DNA from: Diprion similis
Taxonomy: Eukaryota; Arthropoda; Insecta; Hymenoptera; Diprionidae
DNA: 64,000 bases
Direction of reading: 5' to 3'
Assembly: GCF_021155765.1 (NCBI RefSeq)
Contig: NC_060106.1
Location: forward strand, 20,486,031-20,550,030
The first letter of the stretch is position 1, and every line of letters begins with the position of its first letter. This document shows, piece by piece, positions 19,589-63,542 of the stretch. Below the pieces are notes generated by a model. That model was given only the letters and a program-made list of their open reading frames with translations. It was not told the DNA's origin and searched no databases. The position numbers and the translations under genes are program-made.

Positions 19589-21578
19589 CTCTTCCCTCTT
19601 CTTTTCTCATCTTGTATAATTCTCTGCCTACACTGGCACCTGTACTTGCTCTTTGCCCATGGTGCATAATATGTTGTAAATGCATCACAAGCTTGTTCAA
19701 TATTGCCATGGACAAATAAAATAGTATCTATCTATCTATCTATCTCGCTCTCGGCTCTTTCCTTAACCTTGACCCACAGCTAGCTAAATTACAGCAGATA
19801 TACATTCGTTCGCTTTTAATGATGAATGAATAGAGCTCTCAAACATCAACATAATATCTCGAGTTTTGCAATAGCAGACTGATCATTACAGCGAAGTCAT
19901 CGAACTGAATTTCACCCCTTGTACACATCCTCGCCCTTCGATCGCACTTAGGGCTTTCATCTAAATTTAGACCGCGGTATGCGGGTAGGTATAAACGGTA
20001 CAACAACTGCCTCAGCTGACGCGTATTTAACTCCTGTTTACGGAGCCGAATAACAACAGCCCGCATTTCGCTTCGATGCCTTAATGGATCGTAGAAAGAA
20101 AAGAAACACAGGAAACGGATAAAAAGTGAAATTACAAACGGGGTTCTTTTTACCAGACCAAACAATTAAGATGCAATGTTAAAATGTAAGAAATCAGCAG
20201 TTTTCAGTATCATTCAATATAATCACAGTATTTTCCGAGGTTTCTCTTCCCGATCGAGAATAACTCTAAACCGGAATTTCCTCGTGGAGTACCCTTGGTA
20301 GATTCCAATGAAGACGAGACAAGTTATAGGCGAAAAAACGGGAAACTTGAACGGATGTTCAAAAATAACGGGCATAAACAACAGTTTCCTCGAAATGTAA
20401 ACGATACTTTTTGTTTTTCCTTTAATCAAGGTGAAATACAAACCGGGTACGATAGGCGCACGTGTTTCTCGCGCCGGGTGAACAAGGTGCGATGAATGAT
20501 AGAAGCGCGAAGGGCGGGAGGGCGACGAGAGAACAAGACACACACATTCACACACCTCCGTGGAGGCGCGCACGAGCCTCCAGTGTAACCTTGATCTGAC
20601 CTGAGGGTAGAGGGCCGAGGGTCGTGGAGGGGGGGGGGGGGGGGATAGCAAAGGGGACCGGAAGAGCTCGGTCAGGTGGTTTATGAAAAATGGGAAAGAC
20701 TGAAAGATGTCGACGAACGGTGCAGCAAGTACTCGGGACAGGAGTACGGAGAATGAATGAAGTAATTGCGGATTTACGCAGTGGCTGAATCTCGAATCGT
20801 TGAAATAATCAGCCAAGCGACCGTGTTATATTTGCGAATAACTTTGTCGGTTTGGGGTTGAATTTTGAGCGGTGTATGGTCTGGTGTGGTGGAAAACGGT
20901 ATCGAGAATAGTAGCGGATGCACACCAGCGAGTGGGTATCGATTGACCAGGCTTGCCTGAGTTAACGGTTTGTTTACACGAGCGAGTATCAAGGCGTCAC
21001 GGCGCATGCGCGAGTCGTTCCAAAACAATAATAGAGTAGGAAGGAAGGCTGGCCTGGCGGCGGCAGGGAGACAGGCAGGCAGTAGTCGCTGGCTCGATTC
21101 TCCCGTATTGCCAACGTACGGTGCCGACACGTAAGAAAACACGGATAAAACCGAGAGAGGCAGAGAGGCGCGCGCGCGCACGCACACACAGAGATATAAT
21201 AAACACGGGCGTACGACGAACGAGTAACGACGACCAACGATCGCGCACCAAAATATATTGCATATATACACAGACGTAACTACCGTCATCTCGATTCGGC
21301 AGAGAGCGTGTCGCACGGTGTAAAACTACTGGCTGGCTCTTGGCTGCGACTCTCTATCGCTGGCAGCAACGGTGTCCATAATTTCGTCAGTCGAGAATCG
21401 CTCCGACTCCGCGTGTTGTTGCCATTATTGTGCAATGTTTAATCAACTGTTCTCAATTCTAACTCTCTAAAAACTCCTGCGGGTGTAGTTTCGTTGCGTG
21501 TGTGTTCGTTCAGCTTCGATTCCGAGTGCAAGTGTTGCATATTTTGTATCTCGTGTTTGTCCGTACCAGCAGATAATA

Positions 21579-21630
<52 letters not shown>

Positions 21631-21800
21631 GCACAACCACACAGAAGCGTCAGTTACGAACGACGATTCGTCGGCAGCGCGTAGAGTGTGACGTAACGTG
21701 CAGACACTCGACGCTACTCGAACCAAAACAATAACAACAATAGGACAAAAGAACGGAGAGGCACATAAGTACCGTTGTAACAAAAGTTTGGCCGAGAGAT
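18870..21800. other. HAUS3-FRAT intergenic region
   Basis: No supported gene. It holds (CT)n at 19556-19582, (ATCT)n at 19726-19745, a 16-base G run at 20629-20644 and a long (AT)n run. From about 20.5 kb it becomes richer in CpG and repeats, consistent with an approach to the FRAT promoter. Confidence 0.45.
21581..21627. repeat. (AT)n microsatellite
   Basis: About 23 uninterrupted AT units, likely length-polymorphic. Confidence 0.95.
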
Positions 21801-21807
21801 AGAGGAA

Positions 21808-21813
21808 TATAAG
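21808..21813 (+). promoter_or_regulatory. FRAT: candidate TATA element upstream of FRAT
   Basis: TATAAG in a purine-rich context, about 0.7 kb upstream of the FRAT ATG. The leader that follows holds (TTG)n and (GA)n runs. It would fit a long unspliced leader. There is no direct evidence for the start site. Confidence 0.25.
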
Positions 21814-22015
21814 AGAGCAAATACGTGGTGCAGAAGACGATCCCCGCTCGATCGAACTCTCGTTCATCAACATTTCATATTTCGGTACAATAACAAGCCA
21901 AGTCCGCGGCGGTTGTAAGTACAGCTTATTCGAACCGCTAACGAGTCTGTTGATATACATATAAATCGTACTCGGCGGTCGAACGATATCGGGGAAAATT
22001 CCAAACTTGATTTGT

Positions 22016-22044
22016 TATTGTTGTTGTTGTTGTTGTTGTTGTTG
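22016..22044. repeat. (TTG)n microsatellite
   Basis: About nine TTG units in the presumed FRAT leader. Confidence 0.85.
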
Positions 22045-22149
22045 ACGATCGGTGATACCGTTGCCGGTTTATTCAGAGAACAGCAGAGACAACGTTAAAG
22101 CTTAGCTGGCCGAGTCATCGTCAGTGAGTGGAGACCGGAGCGAGACAGA

Positions 22150-22206
22150 GCAAGACTTGAGAGAGAGGGAGAGAGAGAGAGAGAGAAGTACAGAGAGAGA
22201 GAAAGA
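22150..22206. promoter_or_regulatory. (GA)n tract, possible GAGA-factor site
   Basis: Two nearly continuous GA runs about 300 bp upstream of the FRAT start. GA repeats bind GAGA factor (Trl) in insects. Its use here is inferred. Confidence 0.4.
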
Positions 22207-22503
22207 GGTGGGATAGTTTTCGTCATCCGGGTGAGTCACGCGCGCGACCCAGTACACCAGCAGCCCGCAAGCTCGAACTTGCCTGAACGGAGGAGAAAGA
22301 CCAACTGCATTGCGGTCGTTCTGTGGTAGCGATTCAGTGAGGTGACAGGACATACCAGTGCCGAGAGAGTAAAGAATAGCGGCAGGACCGCGAGTGACGC
22401 AGCAGCAGCAACAGCAGCAGCAGCAGTAAGAGCACAACCCGAAGGAACGAGTAGTATCCCTCTTTCACATCGCATCGCGGAGGACGTACGGACGGGAGTA
22501 AAG

Positions 22504-23088
22504 ATGCCGAGCGCAGCTGAGGAAACTACTTATTTAAATTTAATCGACGTTATGCCGCGACGAGAGGCGACGACGACGCAGGAGTTTCTAGCGAGAGACG
22601 TCGACCTGCTGGTATCCCAGATAAAGGAGAACCTTAGGCTATCAGGATTCAAGGCCAAGTCTAGCTTCACCCAGAAAAGCCGCCCTTCGCCCTACAGGAT
22701 ACCATCGAGATCGTGGGCAGATCCGGCGGCGACGTGCGAGGCCTGCAGGTTAAGAGTCGACGCGACCGAGGACGAGCGGCAACAAAGTCATCACAACTAC
22801 CATCACCACCACCACCACCACCACCATCACCACCACCATCATCATCACAATCAGAAAAGGTCGAGCACAAACGTCGACGACCCGTACGAGCTGCTTCAGG
22901 TTCTACTTCGAGAGGGTGGTCTGATTAAGGAAGCGGTCAAGAGGCTCCAAGCATCGTTGCAAGCCTCGCTACAAGCGAATCTTAAGGAGCTGGACAACGC
23001 CGAGGAGGAATCCGTCTACGAGAGGAAGCCCTACTTCTACGACTCCGAAGACGAGCCTAGGCCGGTGATACCGCCGCTTGAACTTTGA
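22504..23088 (+). CDS. FRAT: FRAT/GBP-type GSK3-binding protein, intronless
   Basis: FRAT/GBP proteins bind GSK3 and displace Axin, stabilising beta-catenin in Wnt signalling. This CDS encodes 194 aa without introns; vertebrate FRAT genes are also intronless. Two FRAT hallmarks are visible. The first is an N-terminal block beginning MPRRE (residue 17) with DVDLLVSQIKENL at 32-44, like the vertebrate MPCRRE start and EVDRLVAQI segment. The second is the GSK3-binding helix at 124-149, with DDPYELLQ and GGLIKEAVKRLQ, matching the FRATtide pattern DDPxxLLQ...LIKEAVxRL. Between them is a run of 16 histidines (100-115). The acidic C-terminus (YFYDSEDEPRP) is not one I recognise from vertebrates. 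ATG 22504 is the first in frame; ATG 22552 (residue 17) is an alternative start that aligns better with vertebrate FRAT. The family call is by motif only; overall similarity looks low. Confidence 0.85.
   Translation: MPSAAEETTYLNLIDVMPRREATTTQEFLARDVDLLVSQIKENLRLSGFKAKSSFTQKSRPSPYRIPSRSWADPAATCEACRLRVDATEDERQQSHHNYHHHHHHHHHHHHHHHHNQKRSSTNVDDPYELLQVLLREGGLIKEAVKRLQASLQASLQANLKELDNAEEESVYERKPYFYDSEDEPRPVIPPLEL
22801..22848 (+). repeat. FRAT: poly-histidine codon tract in FRAT
   Basis: Sixteen consecutive CAC/CAT codons. The mixture of two codons suggests a tract that has diverged at the DNA level while the amino acid run stayed intact. Confidence 0.95.
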
Positions 23089-36200: not shown

Positions 36201-39200
36201 ATATATAATAACCGCAACTATTCGAGCTCGCCCAATAATCACTATATATACTTGTGGTTTTGCACGTAAAATCGATGCGAATACACATATAGGGATACCT
36301 ATATATGAATAAGATCGCGGGAAGAAAAAGTTGGTCATACAATTATCCTGATCACGTAAGAAATAAAAAGGGGATTCCCGAATCAATAAAAGATATTTTT
36401 AGCCTAACATTTTTCTCTATAATAATTATCAACGAGTCAATTTTACTGTAACTGCTTAATTCGACTATAATTCATGTTTCTGCCGTGCGAAATGCCTCGG
36501 GATTATCCGATTTAACAATGTGACGTTCTTTTCCGTGCGTGCAGGAATCGTACTTTCAGTGGTGCTTCGGGGTTGAGGAACCAGACTGTTACGGATGCAT
36601 TGACGTCACGACATCCGAGTCCATTCTGTTCTTCCCCCGCTTACCGGCCGAGTACGCGGTGTGGCAAGGCACCCTTTACACGACCGATGACTTCCGGAAA
36701 CGGTACGCGGTCGACAAGGTTTACTACACCGACCAGATTGCGGATGTTCTAAGCCAGCGGGGTGCCTCCATGCTTCTGACGTTGGTGAGCTTTGTTTTTT
36801 TCCGTCGGTAAAAAAGAAAATGATAAAATGCGTATCCGTTTTGCACCACGCTGTAGATAAATTGGATAAATTATACACTGCTTCTCTATGCTAGGTTGTA
36901 TGTACAACTCATTTTCTTATGCGTTCGTCGTTTATCTTAGAACGGATTAAACACCGACAGTGGACTTGCCGCGCGCGAAGCTGTTTTCGACAAGATTGGC
37001 CAGTGAGTACGATAAAATTCAAAATGTATATTGAATCTCCTAAGAAATGAAAATTTCTCACAATAAACATCTGCTTCTTATATTTCAGATTCAACGTTAA
37101 CAACACGCTGTTATATCCGGAAATAACGGAGTGGTGAGTCCTACAGCTTTGCATTGGAGCAATATTACCAAATGCGTTTTTGTCGCCAGCCGGTAACTTG
37201 CGAATGCTTTTTAGACTGCTGCGCGGGTAAACTGGTATTTCATAAATATCGAAAGATCGCTGTTATGCCGACGGAGATTTTGTAACACAAGACGTTAACT
37301 GCAAATGACGTCTCTTACCAAAAGAAAATTACGCATTCAAATTGAATAAAAAACGCTGCAGATATCGCTAGCGTCAATTTTTTAATCCAGCAAAGTTTGG
37401 CCGATATTTAAATGCCCGACCGCTCACTTGTTCAGAATAATATGGCAAATTGACACGGCCATTTTTTTTTTTTAAGAATTTATTCATCGCATTTTATTCC
37501 CGGAAAGTCATTTTCTCATTCAGATTAAATTTTTAGTCATTTTTTTTACCGTCAAGTCAAATCGCTTACGGCGAAACCCGTTTCGACGATCACGTCGTGG
37601 ATTCCCATTGAATTGCCAATGAGGTGCCATAAAAACAAGAAACCCAAGTAACCTCTAAGGACACACACACGATGCTGGCGAGAGCACTGTATCGAAGACT
37701 TCCGCTTCATTCGGCTTCTTGGACAGTTCTTCGTTCTCCGATTTCGGCTCTCAGCACCGTAGCAAGAGGCGGACCACGAGTATTATTGCGCAGCACGATA
37801 CTTGTCCAGGACGGATCGCTGGTCCACGAGTTGCCGGTGATGGTCAGAAGGCCGAAGGACTTGTTGCTGCAGGATGAAAAGGGTGAGAGACTCAGCAGCC
37901 GGAGTAACATGACGAAGAAGTCGAAGAGCGAAGGTCGCCGAGGACCGAGTCGAAGGATAAACATCGAGACGGATGAGGGAACGGCGATCCTGTTCGGATC
38001 GGACCTCGATTTCCTCAAGGAAGCTAACGTCGAGCAACTCCTTGCCGGCCTCGAGTCATGCTACACGCCGAAAGGGGTCTTCTCGCTCCTGGAGACGATA
38101 ATAGTAGAAGAGATAAACTCGATGGTCGCCGTCCAGGCGCTTCGAAAGATAATCGAGCTCGAAAATTCCCCGCGAAATGGAAGCAGAGCGAGCCCAACCT
38201 GCAACCGCGAATGCGTCCTTGGCCAGGTGGTCGAAATGATTGCCGGGACTCAGGACGGTGACACGCTCCTTGAAGCACTCGATCTTCTAGCCAGGGACAC
38301 TATCAGTCCACCGGTGAACCGGTTGCGGGATCGTCTCTGCGACGAGGTCGCGTCCAGAATCGCTGACAACGAGATGAGTGTCGCCCAGATCGTCGAGGCG
38401 GTTCGGGTTATGACCAAATTCAGGAACCTCGAGTACCAGGAAGTCGTCGATTCTTTATGGGTCGGTCTCGCAGCTAGAGAGAGCGAGGTCTCAGCTGAGG
38501 ACCTGGTCCCGCTCTTCAGGTCTCTTCACTCGTTCAAGAAGAGCAGAAGGTTCGTTCACGCCGTTCTTGACCGCAGACTTGAACGCCATTTGAGGCTGCT
38601 CACGGGCCGACAGATCGCTGACATTCTCAACGCTTTGGCCAACGCGGCCATCGAGTCTCCTGAGACTCTTAGATTGGCTAACAAGTGGGCTGCGACCAAG
38701 GCGAACACCGTCAACGAGCAGGATCTACTGGACCTCGTCCGCACTTGGACGGTTACTCGCAACGTCGATCCAGCCGTCGAAAAAATGATGGAGACTCATT
38801 TCGAGACGAGGCTGGGCAAGGCCAAGGCGAAGGAGGTGCAGCCATCATCGATGCATGAGTATTTTCGTAGCGCGTGTTCGGTCCTTTTGGGGTCTTGGGT
38901 TCGCTGGTTCCGAATTTGAAAGCAAGATTGCGTCATTGCTAATGGGATAGAAAGAACGTAGTCGAGGACACGGATTCAAGGTACTAGAAAACGTCCAACA
39001 CGCGCTGCGAAAGTGCGTATCTACAAGTGTGACAGTAAAAACTTTCGAGTGGCTCGATTCACTCAATTAGAAATCAGTTGGAAATCACTAGAAATCAGTG
39101 AATTTCAAGCTATTTGTTAATATTAGACATCATTTGGAAATCAACGAGAAGTTGGTGAACCTTGAATTTTTTAGTATGACTTGGAAATCAGTGGATTTCA

Positions 39201-42200
39201 AGCTATACTTGAACACCAACAAATCCTAAGTAATTTCCAAGTGATTTCCAAACGAAGAGCCCCTCCGAAAAAACGAAACCACCAACTAAATCATTCATGG
39301 CCTGTTTTCCGAAGGATCGGACATTGGTCGGTGCGATGATGAACTACTGCGAGAGCATGAGGATCAGAAACCCCGTTATTCTTACTGGGTGTGCCGACTA
39401 CCTGGGAAAAAATGCCAGGAGTCTTCCGGCAGGAACGATCGTGTCGATTTTCGTGCCATTCGGTAGCCTCTACTTCCGGCCTCCAGAGCTGATATCCAAC
39501 CGATTTTGGAAGTCTTTGGAGGACGCGGTGGCCAATAAGTTTCTTCAACTGAAGCCGAACGATGCGTTGGACGTTTTGCTGGCCTTTGTCCACCTGGAAC
39601 GATGCCCGGTTAAGTTCGTCGAAAAGGTCTTCAGGGCCGGTTTTCTCGATCGGCTTTTCCACAGACGGAACCTTCGCTCGCTCGACGCTTCCAAGACGAA
39701 ACTGAGGCTCTTCGACGCCGCCATGACACTCGAATGCCCGCAATACGCGGGCCCGATGATCCCGAGGGGCGAGAGGCCCGGAAACCCAGTCTGCCAGGAC
39801 GCGAGGCTCAAGCGAATCGTCAACCGGTTTCATCCTCATCTCGTCAAGCTTGCGGGCCGCCATTACACCGTCAGCAAGACCATTTTCCTGGGCCAGCTGC
39901 CCAGCATCGAGTTCTACGCGATCGACGCCCTCATTTATCCAAAATCCGGTCCTTTTCCGAGCCAGGTTTTCAGCTTGGAAAAACGGCACCGAAACCTCAG
40001 CACCGCCGTTCTTGTTCATCTACCCGAACATTTTTGCCGGAACAGTCCGCAGCTTATGGGACCTCAAGTCACGAGGAAAAGGCACTTCCGGAAACTTGGT
40101 CTCCGCGTTATGTCACTCGATTTTCACACTCTCGAGAAAATTGTTAACGATCCACTCGCTGTCGCTCGATACCTCGAGGAAAGATTGCTTGCCGCTGAAG
40201 AGGGAATGTAGAAACCTGGTACTGCGTCAATTTGCTTGTAACTGATATCCTGAGCTTAATTCAGTCGACGCAAGTGTTTTGATAGTTTCTCTCTGAAGAT
40301 TTCCATCAACAGCTCCAACGCTGTTGCACGTCGCTAGTCCGAATAAGTACGAAAAAATTGTTCAACCTTCAGAAAACTCGGTTCCGGTGTTCTGTTTGAG
40401 ATTTTTTTAATTCTAATGTGAATTCGCGATTAGGGATCGAAAAAATTCTAAAGTCACCATGTCTGATCACTTTTTAACTCCAATTTCAGCAAAAATGACT
40501 GGCAAATAATTTTTCCGTAACTTGACCAGCAGAGAAAAGTATCGATGTTTTATTTTCTGTTTCAATAAAATGGAGAGCGTTTCATTGGGTAAATTTCTTT
40601 TTCTGCAAGGATAGCCGAGTGATCAAGTCACCGAGGGAGATCGAGGTCTTGAGATACGTAATAAAAGTCAGCTCCGATGCCCATCGTGCAGTGATGCGAG
40701 CTGTCCGACCGGGTCTCGCCGAATTTCAAGCGGAAGCTGCCTTTTTGCACCATGCTTACTCCGTAGGTGGATGTCGCCATGTTTCTTACACTTGCATTTG
40801 TGGATCTGGCCACAACGCCTCTATCCTTCACTACGGACATGCCGGTGCACCGAACAACAGGGTCCTCAAGGACGGAGATATGTGGTGAGCAATGCAGACT
40901 CTGCGTCATAGATCTCAGATCTTTGCGCTCTTATTCCTGTAATTTTATTCCCCGTAAAATGTACAATCCTAAAATCGTCACCTTGTGATTGTCAATAGAC
41001 TGTGAGTCAGGGTCTTGGATGTCATTTAAGATTATTATTCTTGTGGGGTTTATTTTCGGAAAGCTACAGATTTCTCCTGCCAGAGTTATCTCAATAACAG
41101 TGCAAAATTCACAATTTCATAACTGTGTTAAAAACTTGGGGACAAAAAGCGCTGTATAATCATCGGCATAAAATCAATTTTTCACGTAGGTATGTTGACA
41201 TTTATTTGATGAGCAAAAAGAAAAAATCCGTAAACCGGAAATCAAACGACAGATCCGTTCTTAATTCGTGATTAGATTTTCTTACTCGCAAGTCGAAGGT
41301 CGATGTTTTTCGTTAACCCGTCAAGTGTTTTTTTTACATTCGCCATGCGAACGGTATAATACCTACCACCAGTATGTAAAATATTTTTCAAGACAAAACG
41401 GGGTCTTGTGGATTGTGACGAAAATATACATGAATTATGCATAATACGTGTATAATACATTGAAGTTCGAAATTCCTTGCTTGGAATTAGATTTCGGGAT
41501 ATAAAAAGTAGTTGCTATCGCCGGCTATGCATGTAATAATATATACTCTCGATCTATTGTGGATTCGATCAAAAGACCAGACACGCGTGTCCTCCTCTGA
41601 GAGGCTTTAGTCCGCAACGTGGAATTCCACGGTTACGTGACGAAATGAAAAAGTCTGATTTTCGATATCTTCCTCCCGGCTTGGTAATTAAGCGTATCAT
41701 AATACGTACCACCTTTGCAATGAATCGGCTAATTACTGAGAGAGTGAATCATCCAGGTGCATGAACCTCGTGATCTCTTGCGCAAGGTTGAAAACTCTTG
41801 GCCGGTGTGTAAATTAATCTGCGTTAATACTTTGCATTTAATGGATGAAAACATGATGCAAGTGTTACATGTTCATTGTACGATTTCAACTTCCATTATC
41901 GATTCACATTCTGGAAAGAACCACGCCGAGTTTTATCGAAATCCGGGTTGGTCCTAATCTCTCTTTACTTTCGGACGTCATCAAGTCTATAATAATGCGT
42001 GTATTAACGCCGACCTTGGTTTTTCCCGAGAAACAATTTATTTTATCAAAATATTACGTTATACCATAAACTACGTGTAATAATTATCTTCGGACTTACG
42101 ACGAACTTTCAATTACACATTATGAAAGAAATTCAAACGCGCAAGCGCTGCCTATTCTCCACACTCATTTCATACGTCACGATCTCATATGGTCATACGT

Positions 42201-45200
42201 ACAAATTATCTTACATATTCATTCACTTACAATACTCAGCAGGTGTTTTACTGGCGTATTTTTTTCACAAATTCCTCGCACATATTTGCTATCACGCGGG
42301 AGGCCCAGTCTGTCAAGATACTTTGCTTAGTCGGTTTCGTTTTCTTTTTTTTTTTTTTTACTTTTCCTTCACATTCTGGCAATCTCGTCAAAGAGTTGGT
42401 AATCGTTAAGATTATTATACTCATACATGTATGTGTACACTTTATTCATTCAAAATTTAATCGACGCAATTTAACGTCTCTTAGTACCATTCATTTCAGA
42501 GCCTGCAAGTTATACTCGGTAATATTTAATACACGCATAAACAATGAAAAGTAACAGGTGTCGTAATGTAATCATTGTTAATTTGATAGCATCTACATGT
42601 TGCACATGGTGTCAAAAACTTTACATCACGTGTACCAGCAACTGTAATGTATTTTGAAGCTGATGTAAATATGTATATTAATCGTGTACAGGCGTATTGG
42701 TATTATTCATGCAAAGCATTACCACATCTGTACGTTCAAGTTACGACGATTACCGATTATCATTAAAGCCACGCATACAACGATAAACTCGTACCTACCT
42801 ACGTATGTTGGGGAAAAAAAAACGGTGGGAGAAAAAATTGAAATCAGAAATAAAAAGTTGTTAATAAAAATGAAATACAAGAGAAGAAATAAAAAATAGG
42901 CGACGATTTATGTACTTGTCGTGTCAAGGGAATAAATACAGAATTGAAATAATCATAGGAACTGTTTAGAATTTCAAATTTATTTATTACTCAGGTTCTT
43001 GTATATACTCGTAGTATACTTACGTACAATATATGTATGTATAGTACGTTCACGGAGAGGGAGATACGTAAAGTGTTTAGATATAGCAAGAATTTCATGA
43101 AACGAAACACATCCATATAAGGCCCAGCAATCTAACCGCGGATGCCTCGGTGCGTTCTGCAAAACTGAACGCTTGTTATGCATGTACGTATATTATGCAC
43201 GTCGTAACCTCTTTCATCACTCGTAAATAATTGAATATACAATGTTATACACCGTGTTTTAAAATGGTCTTATTCTCTGGGGAAACGTCGGGTCGTAGAA
43301 ATAATGAGAACGGAATTGAAAATGCTTCGGGTGTTCGTATAGTCTGGCTGAAAAAAGTCGCGATACTCAAGTCACGAAGTAAATCAGGTTGGGTTGTGAA
43401 ACTGTAGAAATTACTTGAGTTGGATGTGCCGAAAACTGTGCAACGTTCAAATAATGAGAATAAGAATTCCAAAAACCGAGAACTTGAAGTGAGGCATGAA
43501 TTTCACTGACACCAAAGCATATCGTTCAACTTGTTTCCTTCGCAAATGAATTCTCTCTAAATCAAAATCATCATACTTTATTCAAAACGAAAAGAGATCT
43601 CAGGTTATTCGAAGAGGCTTCAATTACGAAGAAAAAAAGTCTCAGAATTTCACTGAATCTCATCGAAAGAAATTCTTCTGGTATTAAAAAAATGGCACAA
43701 TAACGGGAATTCTTCCACTTTCAGGATAACTGCTGAATATTTTTTGACGAAGCTGCCGGTTTCTCTATTTTTTATTATTTTATATTTTGGATCCATTCCA
43801 GCTGCATCTCTGATCCTTTTTTATATCATAATTTTCATTTCCTATCGTCTGAGCATTTCTGTCTGTACTTTTTCACACGTCATATTATCATACTCTGCGG
43901 TATTATAGTATTTCGGTAATCACGCGTTGCGTTGAAATTGTCGTTCCTTCTTTCCTGTTTCCATCTGTGCATCAACGTAATACAGACAATTACTCTCGGG
44001 GGTTAAATACTTGAGAAACGGACGTGGAACCGCATGCAAAGAAATTGTCAAGCTGCATAAACAAACCGCAGGAATTGCATTGGCAGTTACCAAAGTACTT
44101 GGAGTCTTGTGCTCCTTACTACTGTCCCTGCATGTTGGCTTGCTGCTCACTAAAGCATCGTCACTTTGTCACCAATGTCTGATCAACTTTCATACCCAGT
44201 AGCAGGACGTGACTTTATTTTAACTCTTCAAGTACCATCCGAACAGATTTGTACCCACCAGAATCGTAGTTGCCAGAAGTCTCAAGCAATTGGAAGCACG
44301 TCGATTAGCCCCCTTTTCAAATCAGCTCCTAATTGGTCTCCACGTTTTCGTCTTCAGCTTGTTCGACATGGGCGCAAACTACTGCGGCTACGCAGCCGAC
44401 ATAACCTGCAGTTATCCGGCCAACGGCAAGTTCACCGAGGACCAAAAGATGGTCTACAACGCGGTCCTCGATGCCCGGACCGCCGTCATGAACGCGGCGA
44501 AGCCTGGAGTGTCCTGGTCGAAAATGCACCTTCTGGCGAACAGAGTGATGCTGGGAAGTCTCGTCAAGGGAGGACTACTCGTCGGCGACGTTGACCAGAT
44601 GATTCTAGCCGGTCTCGGCGAGGTTTTCCAGCCCCATGGTCTCGGGCACTTGCTGGGTCTCGACGTCCACGACGTCGGCGGATACCTGCCGGGTCATCCC
44701 GGTCGTTCGAACGAACCTGGACTCCGGAAGCTGCGGACCGCCAGGACCCTGAAGGCTGGAATGGTGCTGACCATCGAGCCAGGGTGCTACTTCATTAACT
44801 GCGTAAGCATGGACCACCTTACGTGCACCGGTTTCGAAATCGCGCTGAACACGAAGCTGCTTTTAAAAATTGATTTGAGAATAACTGAAAAAATGAGAAT
44901 GAGAGGATGGAGAAACATCTCGGAATGTTTTCCGTAAGACCGTTCGTATCAACTTAAAAATGAGCATTTGGCTCTCGACCGATTCCCAAGGTTGTTCTTG
45001 TAGTATTAAAAAATGCCGGATTCAATCGTTACGTTTACTCTTATTCAATTACCTCGTAGGCCAAGCCTCTTTTCATCCGCGAAACGAATGGCAAAAATGG
45101 AAGTTGGTGTAAACAGATTCGTGTTCAGCATGCGGTAAAGACAGCGTTGTGGCATTGGTCTTATATTCGGAGTCTGTGGGTGTGTGATTAATGCTCGCAT

Positions 45201-46209: not shown

Positions 46210-48399
46210 AACATTCATTATCCTACATTATATATTTTGTATACCTATACTATTGAATATGTAAATTGGAACATGTTTGATATTATACCACATATGTATG
46301 AATTAAAATTTGTGATAATGTATAACGTGGCTGTATATGTATAGGTTTGATAATAATATTGTACTCATTGTCAGAATATAATATAAAATTCTAACGAGAA
46401 CGAATTATTAGCGTATATCAAATATAAACACCGCAATTCACCAAACGGCAGACAGTTGACTTCAATGACGTATGCTTATTATTCTTTGGAAATAAACGCC
46501 TTTGGCGTGAGGAACGATTTGCTAATTCTTTCGTTCCATTTAGTACCACATTTTTTTTCTTTTTCGTAACATTTTAGGCACTTCAGGTTCAGACTGCGGT
46601 ATTAAATGACCACGAGTATAGCATGGGGGCCGTTATTGCATAGCAGGAAGTGAACGCAACCGCAGTTGACGTAAATCACCGTGGCAGTTCGTATCTCTAC
46701 CTACCGAGTGCTCGGTTTGATTTAAACTTTCGAAGGTTCAAGATATTCAGATTCCGGTTGTTGAACTAAAAAGAAACTGGACAAAGGGGCACATTATTGA
46801 TCGGGTTCATTCGGGTTCTCTTTTTATTTAATTTTTTTAATCTCGCTACTATTTTATATCCCCGTTTACTCACAATTTTTGCCTCATTATACTCACAAAG
46901 TGCTGAAATAATATATTGTGTTACGAGTGCGGAAAGTGGAGGATTCCCGACGAGTATGAAATATGCTGCATAAACACAAGCTGTTTTTCCAACATAACCT
47001 AAACGCGCAAACTTCAGGTTGAACTCGACCCAATGGCTGACGGGGTGCGTAAAATTAAGTTACCGGAGAGTGCGCATGCGCTAATATAGCCCTAGTGTGT
47101 AAAATTGAGAATTTCAGATAAGCGCATGCGTCAGTGTCGTTTTAGCGTACTCTTCAGAAATGGCGGACCTCATGCCCGCCCTTCAAAATTAAAAAATAGA
47201 GCTTTCCAAGTGTTTGTTAAAAATATAAATTCCTCCGCGTTATTTAATCGCCAGATTTCATACAGCTTGAAATGAAACCGTGGCCTGTCGATTACACTTT
47301 ATTCGACACTTCATAATGTTACCATTAAACGTATGTATGTTTGTATTACGTTTTCATTATGCGTATGGAACCGTGTAACTTAGAGAGCTAAAATTAAAGC
47401 TATCTGTCGGTGCTATCAATCACGTATATGAACGGATGTTCTCGCGTTTCCGACACGTATGTACATGCTACGCCTTCTCAATTTCATCGTCAGAATTTTA
47501 GATAGATAAAAATATTCTATTTTCAGTTTACATCACGCCGGATTTATTTTGTGATAATCCCATTCGGCGGAAATGAAAATTGTTTTAATATGGGATTTTG
47601 TCTAGAAATTTATGACAACTCTGAGAGGAAAAAAAAAACAGCGAAACGTCGAAATATTTATACGAAAATCAAGAAAAGTCTATCTTTCAAATATTTGATT
47701 TTATTATCGAGATTTTTTACAAATATTAGCTGAAAAAAAATTCTGTATCCATTTTTTTTTTATATAACTGTGAATGAGAAATTTTTCCACAGATACAATC
47801 GGTTAAATTTTGTGAACGTTTCACATCGAGATTCCGATAAGTCTATAATAAATGAATGACGCGCAGTGATACGGAAATAAATTTTCGTCGATTCTCCGAC
47901 GAAGAATCTGGGCAGATTTGAAAAAGTTTTTCTTTGCTCGAGATTGAGCCCTGGTGTTCAAAGATGCCTGTGAGGGGTAGGAGAAAACGTTATCACAACG
48001 AGGAGGTCGAACCCGGGCTTCAAAACCGGCGACACCTTGTATAAGCGGCGTGTACAGACGGCATAATGGTCTCTCTACAACGAATCGACACACCTACACC
48101 GAAGTAAATGAATACAGACACGAGTATAAGCACGGTGTGACGTTAGGCGCGTTATCGGTTGCGCTACGAAGGTTTGCGCAGTTGGGTTTCAGGCGTCGGC
48201 GCGGCCTGATCATCATCCCACTTCGCAGCTGCGCGTTGAGCCAAAAGATGAGAGCATAGGCTGATTTTCACTTGGGCGATATTTGTTGCAGCAACATTGA
48301 GATAAGCTCGTGTGAAGCAAAACAGCAGCACCAGCATCATCATCAGCAGCAGCGGCAGCAGCGTCACTGAAAGCGCGATATACAACGACGCTCTAATTA

Positions 48400-48400
<1 letters not shown>
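46210..48400. other. PEPD-CMIP intergenic region
   Basis: Mostly AT-rich with no supported coding sequence. It contains the promoter-like NRF1/YY1 element cluster at about 47.1 kb. A CAG/CAT-rich stretch at about 48319-48366 marks the approach to the CMIP leader. Confidence 0.45.
47072..47168. promoter_or_regulatory. two NRF1-type palindromes plus a YY1-type motif
   Basis: GCGCATGCGC at 47072-47081 and GCGCATGCG at 47122-47130 are near-perfect NRF1 (insect Ewg) sites about 50 bp apart. AAATGGCGGAC at about 47158-47168 matches the YY1/Pho core seen at transcription starts. The only frame starting there is ten codons long. The transcript served is unknown: a CMIP leader exon, an antisense RNA or an unannotated gene. 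Confidence 0.5.

Positions 48401-63542
<15,142 letters not shown>

Follow-up and report, generated by a model that had tools for sequence, protein, structure and literature searches.

An intact open reading frame of Diprion similis encodes a GSK3-binding protein of the FRAT/GBP type, so that the reported distribution of a known family, represented by FRAT1 and FRAT2 in mammals and by GBP in Xenopus, is widened to an insect. The frame lies at 22504..23088 on the forward strand of the window, the whole stretch of 64,000 nucleotides that was analysed, and specifies 194 amino acids. The gene is regarded with good confidence as an insect orthologue of FRAT/GBP, whose docking box at residues 125-150 would fold as the FRATtide helices and occupy the groove of Shaggy, the insect GSK3, that is used by Axin. 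The orthology is judged from the motif, the order of the conserved blocks and the single match in the genome, and not from a tree.

Family match and GSK3-docking box

The comparison of the whole protein with Pfam-A gave a match to GSK-3_bind (PF05350) over residues 113-162 with 37.1 bits and an E value of 3e-9, the curated cut-off of the family being 25 bits. Six other Pfam families appeared at E up to 10 (seven families in total), all of them under their own cut-offs. Membership of the FRAT/GBP family, which the initial annotation had proposed from the letters of the DNA, is borne out by this score; that annotation had named the lack of a hit to the family profile as the outcome that would speak against it, and a hit above the cut-off was obtained.

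The match includes the GSK3-docking (FRATtide) box DDPYELLQVLLREGGLIKEAVKRLQA (residues 125-150; 22876..22953, forward strand), recognized by Pfam, by the PDB search and by alignment. It is identical to the corresponding segment of FRAT1, DDPHRLLQQLVLSGNLIKEAVRRLHS, at 16 of 26 positions without a gap. The FRATtide pattern noticed earlier is indeed present, as DDPYELLQ at residues 125-132 and LIKEAVKRLQ at residues 140-149.

The insect protein also shows differences from the known members. It is shorter than FRAT1 (194 compared to 279 residues), it carries a run of 16 histidines ahead of the box (residues 100-115; 22801..22848, forward strand), encoded by mixed CAT and CAC codons, and it ends in an acidic and aromatic C-terminal tail beyond the family match. 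The patch PYFYDSEDE of this tail (23029..23055, forward strand) could be a docking motif.

The histidine run had a marked effect on the searches of the PDB. Among the best 60 of 868 matches of the whole protein, many of the top ones were due to the run or to tags, and the FRAT1 chains ranked lower (5oy4_X, E 8.1e-5). When the piece lacking the run was used, the FRATtide chain 1gng_X was found at E 3.6e-5, and FRATtide/FRAT1 chains made up the top four of the seven matches. The GSK-3_bind score was 35 bits without the run and 31.4 bits when the frame was extended upstream. An artefact of the run as the source of the family match was rejected, since in its absence the Pfam match stays and the FRATtide/FRAT1 chains lead the PDB matches. 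In the upstream-extended frame, a ZrgA match over the histidine run was also recorded, with 22.5 bits, below its cut-off of 27.4.

A single-sequence structure prediction, calculated without a partner and of low confidence (mean pLDDT 51.4, pTM 0.23), gave helices at residues 4-15, 25-46, 74-94 and 127-172. The docking box is predicted to be helical, within the last of these, in this low-confidence model. The box would most likely adopt the FRATtide helices.

N-terminal block

A second region with similarity to FRAT/GBP is the N-terminal block DVDLLVSQIKENL (residues 32-44; 22597..22635, forward strand), which is identical to FRAT1 EVDRLVAQIGETL at 8 of 13 positions. It shows the pattern VD-LV-QI-E-L, in the same order with respect to the box as in FRAT1, and the two lie in a single open frame as they do in FRAT/GBP. 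The ungapped score of the block against residues 23-51 of FRAT1 was 35. When residues 1-95 were shuffled 5000 times, 4 of the shuffled sequences scored at least as high (best 38). None did so among 1337 further stop-to-stop pieces of at least 30 amino acids from the window (best 31), a set from which the piece with the block was omitted. Taken alone, the N-terminal half matched no Pfam family at E up to 1, and FRAT1 was absent from its three PDB matches at E up to 10. For this reason the block is given weight only in combination with the box and with the order of the two; its position and order make it supporting evidence, and not a proof.

The initial annotation had compared both DVDLLVSQI and MPRRE with the N-terminus of FRAT/GBP. 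The first part of the comparison is favoured by the shuffles, DVDLLVSQI (residues 32-40) preceding the box in the order of FRAT, and the second is weak evidence. The MPRRE element (residues 17-21; 22552..22566, forward strand), which is a possible second start, shows weak similarity to MPCRRE of FRAT1. FRAT1 begins with MPCRRE, 38 residues ahead of EVDRLV, whereas in the Diprion similis protein MPRRE is internal and stands 15 residues ahead of DVDLLV. Because of this internal position, and of the probable start upstream at 22504, MPRRE was rejected as a signature of FRAT.

Open reading frame and 5' leader

The reading of open frames in the window gave an uninterrupted frame of 194 codons, from ATG to TGA, exactly at the place indicated by the initial annotation. 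A coding sequence in one exon is a trait of the vertebrate FRAT/GBP genes. The insect gene had been called intronless as well; the claim holds as far as the one open frame is concerned, and its support is limited to that frame.

Translation probably starts at MPSAAEE (ATG at 22504) rather than at the MPRRE codon at 22552, because no ATG occurs in the 1,066 bases that precede the one at 22504. These bases (21438..22503, forward strand) form a probable 5' leader, possibly with introns, that ends at the start of the coding sequence. The number of ATG triplets in the run is 0, compared to 14.95 expected; such an outcome was found in 0 of 5000 first-order Markov sequences simulated for it, and the run is the longest inter-ATG stretch when both strands of the window are compared. 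Runs free of ATG are not leaders everywhere, since the second-longest one, of 931 bases (50532-51463), sits inside another frame of the window, similar to the C-Maf-inducing protein (CMIP). The run upstream of 22504 stops exactly at the coding sequence, and therefore a long 5' leader and a start at 22504 are favoured.

The GC contents at the three codon positions of the coding sequence were 0.61/0.38/0.66, unlike those of both flanks (0.55/0.49/0.52 on the 5' side and 0.34/0.32/0.37 on the 3' side). Three neighbouring frames served as controls. A 428-residue open frame at 37633 (0.58/0.42/0.68) was close to the coding sequence, as was the FAST-like frame at 39234 (0.57/0.40/0.65); with 0.56/0.65/0.76, the CMIP-like frame at 50217 differed from it. 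The comparison is thus one with few controls, two of three neighbouring frames resembling the coding sequence and one differing.

Copies in the genome and neighbouring frames

One place was matched when the 269-Mb genome was searched with the GSK-3_bind profile. The search with the protein itself gave 26 matches, of which the other 25 all overlap the histidine run, with E values of 9e-7 or worse. The gene is situated at 20.5 Mb in contig C2. That the host is an insect, as the initial annotation had concluded, agrees with 103 matches in the genome to 7tm_6, which we take to be the insect-type odorant receptors.

It is very improbable that the sequence reflects contamination, a recent horizontal transfer or a pseudogene. 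Nothing was found in favour of these readings. Against them stand the position at 20.5 Mb in a contig of an insect genome, the intact frame, and the lack of a relative in the collections searched, which covered bacteria and archaea (114 pattern matches, 0 confirmed), viruses (29 pattern matches, 0 confirmed) and plasmids (none).

Among the neighbouring frames (56 in the list), eight were scanned and three scored above a Pfam cut-off. On the forward strand of the window, a FAST-kinase-like domain (FAST_1, 45.6 bits) was recorded at 39234-40208, an exon of an M24 metallopeptidase (109 bits) at 44224-44934, and an open frame with the PH domain of the C-Maf-inducing protein (PF23066, 62.5 bits) at 50217-51683. 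A further stretch of 796 bases between ATGs, at 48248-49044 on the same strand, ends about 1.2 kb ahead of the CMIP-like frame at 50217. Elsewhere in the genome, a partial COX1 match was seen at C7:8182164-8182700, with five TGA codons read through, and a fuller one on contig C45, with 11 TGA codons; the match on C7 may be mitochondrial DNA that was copied into the nuclear genome.

GSK3, Axin and GSKIP in the same genome

The proposed partners of the protein are encoded in the same genome; GSK3, Axin and GSKIP are known here from matches and exon pieces, not from assembled gene models. The closest place for GSK3 is on contig C12 at 8.78 Mb, where 64 of the 67 residues compared in an exon are those of human GSK3-beta. 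The exon includes a stretch of 35 residues that is unchanged compared to the human kinase and that, we presume, holds the contacts with FRAT and Axin. Contig C3 carries pieces of Axin exons, ordered along its minus strand near 3.39 Mb; by profile, these gave a partial match to RGS and matches to the beta-catenin-binding motif and to DIX. Ahead of the beta-catenin motif lies the helix PEIFAQVLIEKLENVKRARE, identified by eye as the GSK3-interaction domain. The GSK3-interaction domain of Axin is a helix that docks on the same groove of GSK3 as FRAT does. GSKIP gave a separate match on contig C10, with 97.4 bits.

GSKIP (PF05303) and Axin are, like FRAT, proteins that bind GSK3, and the kinase in common is what could recommend either of them as the identity of the insect protein. 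The chance of this is negligible, since neither GSKIP_dom (PF05303) nor the Axin domains RGS and DIX were found in the protein among the seven Pfam families at E up to 10, and the genome has a GSKIP of its own on C10 and an Axin of its own on C3.

More weight, although still little, is given to an unrelated insect protein that acquired a GSK3-docking helix by convergence. The profile match covers no more than 50 of the 194 residues, and the Axin helix, given the shared groove, indicates that more than one sequence is accepted there. The box, however, follows the FRAT-type pattern DDPxxLLQxLxxxGxLIKEAVxRL over 26 ungapped residues, a sequence different from that of the GSK3-interaction domain in the Axin of the same genome, and a second block is present in the same order as in FRAT. 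Convergence is accordingly judged improbable, and descent from a common FRAT/GBP ancestor is preferred.

As a member of this family, the insect protein is expected to bind Shaggy at the same place as FRAT binds its kinase, because both the box and the groove are kept; the box would thus be bound to insect GSK3 in the groove that is also used by Axin.

Possible function

According to PMC10826278, FRAT1 impedes the interaction between GSK3-beta and AXIN1 and thereby activates Wnt signalling. If the gene is expressed, as we infer, its product could compete with Axin for Shaggy and in this way affect Wnt signalling. Such a layer of GSK3-Axin competition is plausible in this insect, because the kinase, Axin and the FRAT box are all encoded.

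The part played in the Wnt pathway by the vertebrate proteins is not uniform. In PMC6974163, FRAT is described as dispensable for Wnt/beta-catenin signalling in mice; frog GBP is described as essential to the maternal Wnt pathway and as a ligand of kinesin light chain. A Wnt role in the insect is therefore not assured, given the dispensability in mice, and the mouse and frog results together with kinesin binding mean that the insect role could be either. It is accordingly a possibility of some substance, although not the favoured one, that the orthologue binds Shaggy and has its main job elsewhere than in Wnt activation, for example in steering a pool of GSK3 to kinesin cargo or to another place within the cell. 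The binding of GBP to kinesin light chain and the dispensability of FRAT in mice point in this direction, and it is tempting to speculate that PYFYDSEDE, being beyond the family match, serves as a separate docking motif; the requirement for GBP in the frog maternal pathway points the other way. For the FRAT/GBP orthologue described here, competition with Axin is the preferred reading.

Distribution of the family

In a 2020 paper (PMC6974163), TMEM98 is presented, like FRAT, as conserved in vertebrates and absent from invertebrates. No insect FRAT was met among the titles and first lines of abstracts listed from the open-access literature, and in PMC3953950 and PMC6956378 FRAT was found only in a reference. 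Insect entries under PF05350 may already be held by sequence databases, and for that reason the finding is perhaps less new for database users than for readers interested in Wnt signalling.

The protein is probably older than the vertebrates. That FRAT/GBP is not a vertebrate invention, as the initial annotation had argued, follows from the insect homologue. FRAT/GBP is not known from flies. We lean towards a history in which the last ancestor shared by insects and vertebrates already had FRAT/GBP in its Wnt toolkit, contrary to the published statement of its absence from invertebrates; some insects would keep this competitor of Shaggy-Axin binding, possibly with an insect-specific histidine-rich linker and a C-terminal docking patch, and the model flies would have lost it.

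An intact insect copy would place the origin of FRAT as early as the ancestor that insects share with vertebrates. If flies lack FRAT, this would explain why fly genetics never met it. Diprion similis would also offer a system in which one FRAT gene was found and could be removed, compared to two in mammals.
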